DNA from: Jiangella sp. DSM 45060
GTDB taxonomy: Bacteria > Actinomycetota > Actinomycetes > Jiangellales > Jiangellaceae
DNA length: 64,000 nt
Assembly (NCBI RefSeq): GCF_900105175.1
Contig: NZ_LT629771.1
Coordinates: forward strand, 7,398,622-7,462,621
Reading direction: 5' to 3'
Positions within the stretch are counted from its first letter, which is position 1. The number at the start of each line of letters is the position of its first letter. Under the pieces are notes generated by a model. The model was not told the origin of the DNA, searched no databases, and was given only the letters and a program-made list of their open reading frames with translations. Shown here in pieces: positions 16,078 through 19,490 of the stretch. Made by a program: the position numbers and the translations under genes.

Positions 16078-17679
16078 TCAGTCGGCGCCGGCGACGAGCG
16101 GTTCGAGCATGACGTCGGGGTGCCGGCGCTGCACCGACGCCAGCCGCCACTTGTCCGGGAACAGCGCCAGCAGGGCGCCGTCGCGGCGCTCGGCCACCTC
16201 GACGCCGGCCTCGGCGTTCAGCACCGGCGTGCCGTCGGTGTCGGTGCGCCGGGCCAGGCCGTAGGGGAGGGAGTCGAGCGCGACCGGCACGCCGAACTCC
16301 TGGGCGAGGCGGGTCGTGGCGACCTCGAACTGCAGCGGCCCGACGGCGGCCAGGATGGGCGCGCCGTCGCCGCGGCGGTTCGAGGTGAGGATCTGGACGA
16401 CGCCCTCCTCGGCCAGTTGCTCGATGCCGCGGCGGAACTGCTTGGCCTTGCTGGTGTCGGTGGTGCGCGCGGTGACGAAGTGCTCAGGCGCGAACGACGG
16501 CATCGGCGGGAACGCGACCGGCGCGCCGTCGGCGTACAGGGTGTCGCCGACGGTGAGCGCGTTCGCGTTGACCAGGCCGACGATGTCGCCGGGGTAGGCG
16601 ATGTCGATGGTCTCGCGCTCGCGGCCGAGCATGGTGCGGGCGTACTTGGTGGCGAACGGGCGGCCGGTGGCGGCGTGGGTGACGACGGCGCCGCGCTCGA
16701 ACCGTCCGGAGCAGACCCGGACGAAGGCCAGGCGGTCGCGGTGGGCCTTGTCCATGCCGGCCTGCACCTTGAACACCAGCCCCGAGAACGGCGCGTCGAC
16801 GGGCCGCGGCGTGCCCTCGGCGTCGGGCCGTGCGGTGGGCGGCGGGGCCAGCGCGACGACGGCGTCGAGCAGCTGGCGCACCCCGACGTTCACCACGGCG
16901 GCGCCGAACAGCAGCGGCGTCGACGTGCCGGCGTGGAACGTCTCGAGGTCGAGGGTGTCGAGCAGCGACACCTCGTCGAGCGCCGTGCCCCAGGCGTCGG
17001 CGTGGCGCTCTTTCGCCTCGGCCGCCGTGAGCACCTGCTCTTCTGCGATGCGCGCGCCGCCGGGCGCCCGCTCGAACGTCGTCATGGTCTCGTCGTCGCG
17101 GTCGAGCAGCCCGTGGAACGTGCCGGCCTCGCCGACCGGCCAGTTCAGCGGCGTGGCCGTCAGCCCGATGCGCTGGTCGAGCTCGTCGACGAGCTCGAGG
17201 ACGTGCATGCCCGGCCGGTCCCACTTGTTGACGAACGTGATGACGGGGACGCCGCGGTGCCGGCACACGTCGAACAGCTTCAACGTCTGCGGCTCGAGCC
17301 CCTTGGCGGCGTCGAGCAGCATGACCGCGCAGTCGACGGCCGCCAGCACGCGGTAGGTGTCCTCGGAGAAGTCGGCGTGCCCCGGGGTGTCGAGCAGGTT
17401 GACGACGTGGCCCTGGTACTCGAACTGCAGCGCCGCCGACGTGACGGAGATGCCGCGCTCCTGCTCCATCGTCATCCAGTCGGAGATGGTGCCGCGCCGG
17501 CCCGCCTTGCCGTGCACCGCGCCGGCCTCGCCGATGACCCGTGCATGCAGCGCCAGCGCCTCGGTGAGCGTCGACTTCCCGGCGTCGGGATGGCTGATGA
17601 CGGCGAACGTCCGGCGCCGCGCCGCCTCGGCGGCGACGCCGGAGGCAGCAGCCGGCGACGCGGCGGAGACAGGGGGCAT
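16078..17679 (-). CDS. prfC: Peptide chain release factor 3
   Basis: Protein of 533 residues. GTPase motifs are visible: G1 [16 protein letters not shown]3 [14 protein letters not shown], and G4 NKWDRPG. They are followed by the domain II/III pattern of RF3 ([33 protein letters not shown]). RF3 recycles RF1/RF2 from the ribosome. The N-terminus has about 20 extra Ala/Ser-rich residues. Its promoter region (17680-17720) abuts the palindromic repeat at 17721. Confidence 0.95.
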
Positions 17680-17720
17680 GGCGTCAATTCTAGGTGCGCC
17701 CCTCGCCCGCCCCGCCGCCC

Positions 17721-17786
17721 CGAGTTGAGCATGGAGAAATCGGCCTTCCCGGCGCTGGGAACCCCGATTTCTCCATGATCAACTCG
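17721..17786. repeat. 66-bp palindromic repeat, copy A
   Basis: Arms of 23 bp (17721-17743 and 17764-17786) match with one mismatch. The 20-base centre carries a second small inverted repeat, TTCCC-N6-GGGAA. The core of the arm reads ATGGAGAAATCGG. Copy B at 18743-18808 is the same element in the opposite orientation, and the two bracket one gene. It could also act as a terminator, but the size, nesting and duplication point to a dispersed REP-like element. Confidence 0.85.
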
Positions 17787-17801
17787 GTGCGAGGCCGGGG
17801 C

Positions 17802-17810
17802 TGTGGATAA
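17802..17810 (-). promoter_or_regulatory. Consensus DnaA box sequence
   Basis: TGTGGATAA here is the exact complement of TTATCCACA. It stands alone, 40 bases before the DUF559 gene, with no cluster of other boxes and no dnaA/dnaN genes, so this is not an origin. It may titrate DnaA, regulate the gene, or be chance. Confidence 0.35.
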
Positions 17811-17849
17811 CTTTCCGGCTGTTCGCCGTCGTCGGGTCATGATCGAGCG

Positions 17850-18800
17850 GTGCCACGTCGACCACCTGTTCCGGAGCCGTTCGGCTCGCGGCCGTTCCGC
17901 GTCCGCGACGCGACGCTCGCGGGCGTGCCGGTCGACCTGCTCGACGGGCCGCGGTTCCGGCGGCCGTTCCGGGGTGTGCGCGTTCCGGTGACGGTGCCGG
18001 ACTCACTGGTCACGAACTGCCAGGCGGCGCGGCTGGTTCTCCCTGACGAGGCCGCGTTCAGCCACGAGACCGCCGCACTGCTGTGCGATCTGCCGGTGCC
18101 GGTGTTCGACGGCGAGATCGACGTCGTCGTGCCGCCGGGCGCCGTGGTCCCGCGGCTGGCCGGCACTGATGGCCACGTCGGCCTCGACAACGCCACCGTC
18201 ATCGAGGTCCACGGCCTGCCCGTCGTCCGGCCCGAGCGGACGTTCGTCCACCTGGCGGCGTCCTGGCGGCTGGACGACCTCGTGGCGCTCGGCGACGCGA
18301 TGCTGCGGCGGTGGGCCACACCGGAACTCCTGTACGACGAAGTCGCCGGTCTTGCCCGCCGCCGCGGCATCGTCCGGGCCCGCGACGCCGTGCGGCTCAT
18401 CCGTCCCGGCGTCGATTCTCCGATGGAGACGCGTGTCCGGCTGCTCATCGTCGACGCCGGCCTGCCGTGCCCGGAGGTCGGCGTGAACGTCATCGATCAC
18501 ACCGGCACCTGGCTCGCGCGCCCCGACCTCTCCTACCCCGACCTCAAGATCGCCATCGAGTACGACGGCGACCACCACCGCACCGACCAGCGACAGTGGC
18601 AGCGCGACCGCTTCCGCGACGAGCAGCTGCGCGACGCCGGCTGGATCGTCATCCCTCTCACCGCCGACGACGTGCTGCGTCACCCGCAGCGCAGCGTCGA
18701 CCGCATCCGCCGCTACGTCCACCTCCGCTCCACCGCCTCAGTCCCGTTGATCATGGAGAAATCGGGGTTCCCAGCGCCGGGAAAGCCGATTTCTCCATGA
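17850..18800 (+). CDS. DUF559 (Vsr-like PD-(D/E)XK) protein with AbiEi-like N-terminal part
   Basis: Protein of 316 residues from GTG 17850. Residues about 15-190 resemble the AbiEi/DUF-type helical and beta region found before such nuclease domains. Residues about 190-293 form a DUF559/Vsr-like fold with D231 and E237-Y-D239 (RPDLSYPDLKIAIEYDGDHH), then a helix with W250 and a strand IVIPLTADD. These are the likely metal-binding residues. The last 18 residues (about 299-316) and the stop codon are encoded inside repeat copy B. No target or partner gene is evident. Confidence 0.8.
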   Translation: MPRRPPVPEPFGSRPFRVRDATLAGVPVDLLDGPRFRRPFRGVRVPVTVPDSLVTNCQAARLVLPDEAAFSHETAALLCDLPVPVFDGEIDVVVPPGAVVPRLAGTDGHVGLDNATVIEVHGLPVVRPERTFVHLAASWRLDDLVALGDAMLRRWATPELLYDEVAGLARRRGIVRARDAVRLIRPGVDSPMETRVRLLIVDAGLPCPEVGVNVIDHTGTWLARPDLSYPDLKIAIEYDGDHHRTDQRQWQRDRFRDEQLRDAGWIVIPLTADDVLRHPQRSVDRIRRYVHLRSTASVPLIMEKSGFPAPGKPISP

Positions 18801-18808
18801 TCAACGGG
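18743..18808. repeat. 66-bp palindromic repeat, copy B
   Basis: Arms 18743-18765 and 18786-18808 are perfect 23-bp inverted repeats around a 20-base centre with TTCCC-N6-GGGAA. The reverse complement of copy A's centre matches this centre at 19 of 20 bases, so B is an inverted copy of A. The left arm is read as the end of the DUF559 frame. Its TGA is at 18798-18800. Confidence 0.88.
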
Positions 18809-18893
18809 GAGTGGGGCGTGGGTGGCGGGATGTGGCGGTAGGTCGGCGCGATCACGCCTGGGCCGCGGCGGCCCGCCGCCGGACCATCGAAGG

Positions 18894-19490
18894 ATGAGCA
18901 GAGCGCTACTCGTCATCGACGTCCAGGAGTCGTTCCGGCAGCGGCCGAGCTGGGAGCTGATCTCCGACCCCGACATCGCCGCCAAGGCGGGCCGGCTGGT
19001 CGAGCACGCCCGCGCGCAGGGCGATCTCGTGGTGTGGGTGCTGCACACCGAGCCGGGCACCGACACCGTCTTCGACCCGGAGCGGGGCTACGTCCAGTTG
19101 CTGCCCGGCCTGGACCCGCGGCCCGGCGAGCCGGTCCTCACGAAGTCGTCGCACAACGCGTTCACGACGACGGCGCTACAGCAGCTGCTGACCGAGCGCG
19201 GCATCCGCGAGGTGGTGATCAGCGGCATCCGCACCGAGCAGTGCTGCGAGACGACGGCGCGGCTGGCGTCTGACCTGGGCTACCGGGTGACGTTCGTGCT
19301 GGACGCGACCGCGACGAACCCGATCGAGGCGCCGGACGCGCCGCCCGGGCGGAGCAACGCCGAGATCCTCGCCGACCCCCGCACGCTCGGCGTCGACGAG
19401 GTCATGGCGCGGACGGAGTACGCGCTGGCCGGCCGGTTCGCCACCGTCGTGCGGCTGGCCGACGTGGTGGGCGAGCCGGCCGCCGTCTAG
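18894..19490 (+). CDS. Isochorismatase-family cysteine hydrolase
   Basis: Protein of 198 residues from ATG 18894, with GAAGG just upstream. The catalytic triad of the family is visible as D9 (LLVIDVQESF), K84 (VLTKSSHNAF) and C117 (RTEQCCETTA). Members hydrolyse isochorismate, nicotinamide or other amides; the substrate cannot be told. It converges with the WYL-type regulator gene, 2 bases between stops. Confidence 0.9.
   Translation: MSRALLVIDVQESFRQRPSWELISDPDIAAKAGRLVEHARAQGDLVVWVLHTEPGTDTVFDPERGYVQLLPGLDPRPGEPVLTKSSHNAFTTTALQQLLTERGIREVVISGIRTEQCCETTARLASDLGYRVTFVLDATATNPIEAPDAPPGRSNAEILADPRTLGVDEVMARTEYALAGRFATVVRLADVVGEPAAV

Follow-up and report, generated by a model that had tools for sequence, protein, structure and literature searches.

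Introduction

To our knowledge, the only known enzyme tied to dispersed palindromes is the HUH-type RAYT. Dispersed palindromes are common in bacteria, and passages of PMC3733652 note families, such as the CGTC REPs, for which no gene is known. The same passages describe REPtrons, in which a nuclease gene is flanked by palindromes that are also dispersed; the repeat families have a gene of their own, and some genomes keep the repeats without the gene. In the TIRtrons, as presented there, terminal inverted repeats, some self-complementary and some forming dispersed families, flank the gene of a TIRYT, an HUH tyrosine transposase with a conserved catalytic tyrosine (PMC3733652). The CGTC REPs are palindrome families not tied to a RAYT, and the passages that treat them report no gene tied to these repeats (PMC3733652). 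Parts of PMC7319586 describe AbiEi proteins as binding inverted repeats in their own promoters and autoregulating, and a Vsr-like DUF559 protein from Caulobacter appears in parts of PMC12907096.

Here we analysed a 64,000-nucleotide stretch of Jiangella DNA (the window), which lies near the end of a single-contig 7.49-Mb genome (G000:C1:7398622-7462621). As in REPtrons, a gene at this locus is flanked by palindromes that are also scattered as solo copies. However, the REP-RAYT enzyme is of the HUH/Y1 type, while the protein here combines an AbiEi fold with a PD-(D/E)XK nuclease. In addition, the tag GTAG was found at only 1 of 76 palindrome ends (38 palindromes from the 19 matched loci described below), and CGTC at 6 of the 76. 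Given the lack of an HUH/Y1 enzyme and the rarity of GTAG, the unit is not a member of the REPtrons, though it seems to work alike. The gene between terminal inverted repeats is reminiscent of a TIRtron, whose enzyme is still an HUH tyrosine transposase, and the CGTC REPs differ in having no tied gene. The catalytic domain resembles I-Bth0305I and Vsr in its fold and conserved acidic residues, but here an AbiEi fold is attached to it and palindromes flank the gene, whereas I-Bth0305I is, from its PDB name, an intron protein. Similarly, the N-terminal 185 residues resemble AbiEi type IV antitoxins in fold and by a weak profile match, but are fused here to a nuclease. An AbiE toxin-antitoxin pair was rejected, as no DUF1814 nucleotidyltransferase toxin is encoded beside the gene, whose two neighbours encode RF3 and an isochorismatase. 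No description of this gene-repeat system was found in open-licence PMC papers, and one may exist in a subscription journal or a preprint; we regard the system as new in kind, its mobilising activity being presumed.

Results

Two matched palindromes bracket a single gene

The coordinates of the unit and its parts are given in Table 1. The gene lies between an RF3 gene that reads leftward (16078-17679) and an isochorismatase gene that reads rightward from ~18894. The initial annotation had described two nearly identical inverted palindromes of 66 bp around one gene, and the arrangement was borne out: the arms are inverted copies of 84 nt with 85% complementarity, and they hold the only strong hairpins of the window, since a de novo scan of the entire 64 kb (score of at least 16) returned exactly two, the bracketing palindromes. 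The size applies to the right copy, the left being an imperfect palindrome of 76 nt. That the right copy supplies the C-terminus of the protein (~18 codons and the TGA stop) was also correct.

Table 1. Features of the unit, in window positions
Feature	Position	Strand	Details
Whole unit	17693..18820	.	By eye against empty sites in related genomes; ends +/- ~5 bp
Left inverted repeat, C-rich outer part and palindrome	17700..17783	.	85% complementary to 18746-18829
Left palindrome, imperfect hairpin, 5' of gene	17716..17791	.	Folding and hairpin scan; inside longer inverted repeat
Gene, AbiEi fold and Vsr/DUF559-type nuclease, 316 aa	17850..18800	+	GTG start; TGA stop within right palindrome
Residues 3-185, AbiEi antitoxin-like fold, putative palindrome-binding part	17856..18404	+	VIA-align, PADLOC
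Residues 190-295, I-Bth0305I/Vsr-like nuclease domain	18417..18734	+	Conserved residues, fold comparison
Right palindrome, inverted relative to left; holds last ~18 codons and stop	18743..18808	.	Sequence, ORF, folding
Right inverted repeat, palindrome and G-rich outer part	18746..18829	.	Alignment to left arm

Folded as DNA, the left and right palindromes reached -34.3 kcal/mol (z -9.9) and -32.0 kcal/mol (z -11.6), and none of 200 shuffles was as good in either case. The core ATGGAGAAATCGG, allowing up to two mismatches, matched four times in the 64 kb, every time within the two palindromes; 0.37 matches are expected by chance, and none of 100 shuffles reached four. The idea that hairpins came to lie next to a gene by chance is refuted by these shuffle tests, by the window-wide scan and by the recurrence across genera shown below, and we assign it practically no probability. 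A search with Rfam at a relaxed threshold gave 11 matches, nine of them to microRNA models and all far under the gathering scores, and a known RNA family was discarded. Identity as intrinsic terminators was discarded too, as no hairpin followed by a T tract was found at 17600-18950.

A predicted fusion of an AbiEi-type fold and a nuclease

Pfam matched residues 231-289 to DUF559 (E 3.3e-5, above its cut-off) and to MTES_1575 (E 1.3e-8, just below its cut-off). An AlphaFold2 model built with 38 aligned family members had a mean pLDDT of 92.6 and a pTM of 0.86. Using VIA-align, residues 3-185 matched an AbiEi antitoxin (6y8q; Z 12.1, rmsd 5.6 over 175 aligned residues) and Rv2827c (1zel; Z 9.1, rmsd 4.0 over 184). 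The AbiEi match is not unique in its middle part, since residues 51-186 also resembled nucleotidyltransferases of the MenT1 type (Z up to 8.4). The nuclease domain (residues 190-295) matched the catalytic domain of the I-Bth0305I homing endonuclease (Z 13.0, rmsd 2.7, 97 aligned), 3hrl (Z 12.1) and Vsr, 1cw0 (Z 11.1, rmsd 2.4, 100 aligned). These finer assignments come from VIA-align; Foldseek alone, at E of 0.001 or less, returned only Rv2827c (1zel). The PADLOC AbiEi profile matched the N-terminal part at E 3.2e-7, and among the 38 family members MTES_1575 was matched by 37, DUF559 by 32 and Pfam AbiEi_1 by four.

E193, D226, E237-Y-D-G, H243, D253 and R256 were invariant in all 38 aligned proteins and, judging from the family, would be the catalytic residues of a PD-(D/E)XK nuclease. 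The ratio dN/dS was 0.19-0.27 against six relatives, and the gene is under purifying selection. Taken together, these results give a confident model in which an AbiEi-type fold is followed by a nuclease of the Vsr/I-Bth0305I type.

In many related loci (e.g., in Jiangella, Promicromonospora, Leifsonia, Microbacterium and Oerskovia) the stop codon also lay inside the 3' palindrome, while it lay shortly 5' of it in L038, L039, L040 and L084, and after it in L085. Given this varied position, tight packing would seem to account for the overlap of the palindrome with the C-terminal codons.

Genes of the family and palindromes occur together across genera

A protein-similarity search found 85 relatives, the nine best of the named ones all being from Jiangella. 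Of the 85, 80 were kept, and all 80 were used for a census of flanks (the upstream flank could be assessed in 77, the downstream flank in 79 and both in 76). A hairpin was present in the upstream flank at 34 of 77 loci and in the downstream flank at 27 of 79, against a background of 0.004-0.013 hairpins per 300 bp away from the genes in the same loci. The downstream count is conservative, because some gene ends were placed too far downstream; L026, for example, has a 3' palindrome and was scored without one. Hairpins on both sides were seen in 20 of 76 loci, where ~0.01 would be expected. Several species per genus were included, so that the 80 loci are not independent and p-values of the coupling tests overstate the case.

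Together with the window, this gave 21 two-sided loci, and in 19 of them the 5' and 3' palindromes were alike, with alignment scores of 59-110 and medians of 12-15 to other loci. The matched loci came from Jiangella, Promicromonospora, Leifsonia, Rathayibacter, Microbacterium, Flexivirga, Mycolicibacterium and Oerskovia, and from two MAGs (Microbacteriaceae and Micrococcales). The palindromes were unlike between genera and could be alike within one genus. We judge it very probable that gene and palindrome form a genuine co-evolving system.

Several results are counted against a REPtron-like reading of this system. Many family members have no palindromes, including all 19 Bifidobacterium loci of the census and two Jiangella loci (L110 and L124). 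Coupling within a genus is loose, as some Jiangella palindromes (L020, L024) were nearer to another locus's copy than to their own partner; that of L020 scored 66 with its partner and 95 with the right copy of the window. The two palindromes were unlike in L050 (Hamadaea) and L091 (Microlunatus), and among the 19 matched pairs the inverted alignment was better in 13, the direct one in five, with one tie. Strict inverted orientation was therefore dropped as a rule.

Solo palindromes outside Jiangella

Two Leifsonia genomes contained 21 palindrome copies each, and in each genome the two copies that bracket the gene were the only two ~1 kb apart. Two Promicromonospora genomes contained 52 and 27 copies, and their inner sequence was, by eye, like that of the resident unit (50 of the 52 places in G014 were among the matches listed). 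At one Promicromonospora locus (L224, G014:C12:25500-29000), two resident palindromes 850 bp apart bracketed another gene, which we take to belong to the GPP34-type family; chance alone would give 0.5 pairs within 1.1 kb. This second bracketed gene is likewise counted against a REPtron-like reading.

Subfamilies and palindrome classes in Jiangella

Twelve Jiangella genomes (G000-G011, G000 being that of the window) contained a close subfamily of the gene and a second one, 41-46% identical to it. The close gene was present in one or two copies in nine of the 12 genomes, decayed copies apart. One or two copies per genome is nearer to RAYTs than to insertion sequences.

Genes of the second subfamily were flanked by another palindrome class (GTTGATCTTGGAG..., 71-74 bp) at loci in G003, G005, G006, G007 and G010; L110 (G009, C18) and L124 (G011, C154), which lack a palindrome, represent one shared site. 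The commonest type of this class, GATCTTGGAGTTGTTCG..., gave forward/reverse matches of 18/18 in G002, 2/1 in G003, 44/49 in G005, 34/30 in G006, 41/37 in G010, 1/1 in G007, and 1/0 in G008 and G011, with none in G000, G001, G004 and G009. Of the four genomes in which it flanks the gene, three thus had it in abundance (the matches in G003 being its own two flanks), and it numbered 0-1 in seven of the eight others, G002 being the exception. The four genomes with a GATCTTGGAGTTGTTCG-flanked gene rank high, with only G002 out of order (rank permutation, 2/495).

Class 1 (GATCATGGAG...), flanks included, numbered 1, 4, 47, 9, 4, 43, 11, 3, 50, 1, 12 and 18 copies in G000 to G011. These numbers showed no relation to the presence of the close gene (nine genomes with it, three without, p 0.26), because G002 has 47 copies and no close gene. 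Both this genome and the few other copies in the window's own genome are counted against a REPtron-like reading. In G004, the arms of the other palindromes (GTAGATCA and GTGGATCA) resembled those of its own unit (GTAGATCAG and GTTGGTCAG), and they appeared in no other genome among the matches listed, which extend into G005.

An alternative would be that two MITE-like palindromes, moved by a transposase, happen to carry a nuclease gene as a passenger. The many palindromes of G002, which has no close gene, and the GPP34-type gene bracketed once would be expected in that case. We consider it very improbable, however, as the same protein family is carried in several genera with unrelated palindromes, and subfamily and palindrome class go together.

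A third Jiangella class, with a core like GGCGATCGCTGGCGCC, was seen beside class-1 copies or in their place at L174 and L186, and in G009 at the site orthologous to the unit on contig C3 of G001 (L245). It is as if such intergenic spots were shared hot spots for palindrome classes. L111 and L127, distant DUF559 paralogues of ~29% identity in G002 and the window's genome, had other hairpins ~300 bp away that start at or close to a CTTGGCA, and are perhaps further gene-palindrome pairs.

Presence, absence and turnover at sites

At the site of the window, between the RF3 and isochorismatase genes (the RF3 site), traces of the unit were found in five of the 12 Jiangella genomes. G000 had the unit, and G008 and G011 had it in the opposite orientation. 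In G010 (L172) it was decayed, with a good left palindrome, a degraded right one and a broken gene, and G001 (L163) had a 30-codon remnant of the gene, both palindromes being lost. The initial annotation had proposed looking for an empty site in strains without the gene, and all seven other genomes (G002-G007 and G009) were empty, with neither gene nor hairpin there. G003 and G006 had hairpins ~0.7-0.9 kb further on, beyond the isochorismatase gene, and G009 had ~10 extra bases, which could be an excision scar. In G008 (L170, G008:C1:2680255-2685255), an IS110-like transposase gene, identified by reading the sequence only, had inserted next to the right palindrome on its outer side (~1239-2590 of the locus).

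Genes of the family occupied ~11 sites in the 12 genomes, six for the close subfamily and five for the second, as counted from 20 loci and two remnants; matches of ~30% identity, and the second-subfamily matches G010:C321 and G005:C47, which have no loci, were left out. The gene is therefore not confined to a single syntenic site. A second site (3.75 Mb in G008, C33 in G011) was likewise occupied in opposite orientations. Such changes of orientation may stem from independent insertion, or the inverted ends may have recombined with each other. Two units of G008 (L102 and L113) were 95-100% identical over ~700 bp inside the gene and diverged at both ends and in palindrome type, a pattern as after gene conversion. 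The protein tree of the family was poorly resolved, with three of 18 inner branches starred.

Solo palindromes also came and went. One in G008 (position 2947167, L180) was a clean insertion of ~100 bp missing from G011, G003 and G006. At L181, G011 had another palindrome type, and at L183 a variant palindrome, where G006 and G003 showed a gap; the other aligned solo sites of G008 (L176, L179 and L174) differed by larger inserts with other repeats. When the RF3 site, four sites in G001 and six solo sites in G008 were inspected by eye, no consistent target-site duplication emerged, which we count against a REPtron-like reading; possible CTAG/TTAG duplications were seen at two sites other than RF3. 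No recognition sequence common to the empty sites was seen.

The palindromes could also be regulatory: an AbiEi-type nuclease that controls its own expression, perhaps one of defence, might use them as operators, insulators or terminators, and the solos would be operators or terminators of other genes. Autoregulation of AbiEi proteins via inverted repeats, as described in parts of PMC7319586, agrees with this, as does at least one solo between convergent genes. However, a matched copy stands downstream of the gene too, no terminator-like T tract was found, and copy number ranges from 1 to 50 within one genus while solos come and go. This swing and turnover fit spread better than a regulon, and we regard a regulatory role as distinctly unlikely.

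What might drive the spread

The Y1_Tnp family (PF01797, RAYT/IS200), the single other mobiliser family sought, was found in none of the 12 Jiangella genomes, while five of 14 control genomes were positive. This excluded a RAYT/IS200 enzyme as the driver and, with the DUF559/MTES_1575 matches, agrees with the view of the initial annotation that the enzyme is other than a Y1 transposase. Among the relatives, three were in plasmid records, all from Arthrobacter, and one in viral contigs (67 candidate stretches, one peptide pattern). A phage or plasmid vehicle is unlikely on these numbers, and the unit seems to be chromosomal.

It is also conceivable that the palindromes spread by other means, and that a homing endonuclease gene uses them as a target or safe harbour, taking up a place next to them and playing no part in their movement. 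The closest fold of the nuclease domain is indeed a homing endonuclease, an IS110-like element abuts a palindrome, and differing palindrome classes or types occur at the same intergenic spot (at the L176 site in G006, the L181 site in G011 and in G009 at the G001 C3 site). Against this, the empty RF3 site had no palindrome in 7 of 7 genomes, the flanks match as two full palindromes and not as one that was split, and the one other mobiliser sought was absent. We hold homing into resident palindromes to be unlikely, though not negligible.

Discussion

The layout of the locus, the coupling of gene and palindrome and the turnover at sites are directly observed. The initial annotation had proposed a REP/RAYT-like unit with a PD-(D/E)XK enzyme, which fits on layout, distribution and turnover, and we favour, with a fair degree of confidence, a small selfish palindrome-gene-palindrome unit that is REPtron-like and built on such a nuclease. 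The concern that the palindrome might be widespread without any link to DUF559 genes proved half right: solos are widespread, and palindromes are tied to genes of the family in the flank census.

We infer that the protein binds, cuts and mobilises the palindromes. The N-terminal AbiEi-type part would recognise its own palindrome, in duplex form or extruded as a hairpin, and the nuclease domain at the C-terminus (Vsr/homing-type PD-(D/E)XK) would nick or cut there. Much as in homing, the copying of palindromes into other positions, and occasionally of the entire unit, would then be the work of host repair or replication. The proposed route does not involve joining of ends by a transposase itself. 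In our judgement, a direct action of the protein on the palindromes is probably what spreads them. A slightly more guarded judgement applies to the broader proposal, which we lean towards, of a second and independently evolved REP-like system in Actinobacteria, in which a fusion of AbiEi and homing-type nuclease would drive both the spread and the turnover of its palindromes across the genome, and each lineage would have an enzyme and a palindrome that diverged together.

If this is true, a palindrome-spreading way of life would have arisen more than once, here on an unrelated nuclease fold, and the system could explain palindrome families of RAYT-free actinobacteria. It would also supply matched sets of enzyme and palindrome from several lineages for testing how repeats spread, and would give a role to part of the proteins now annotated as 'DUF559 / AbiEi-like'.
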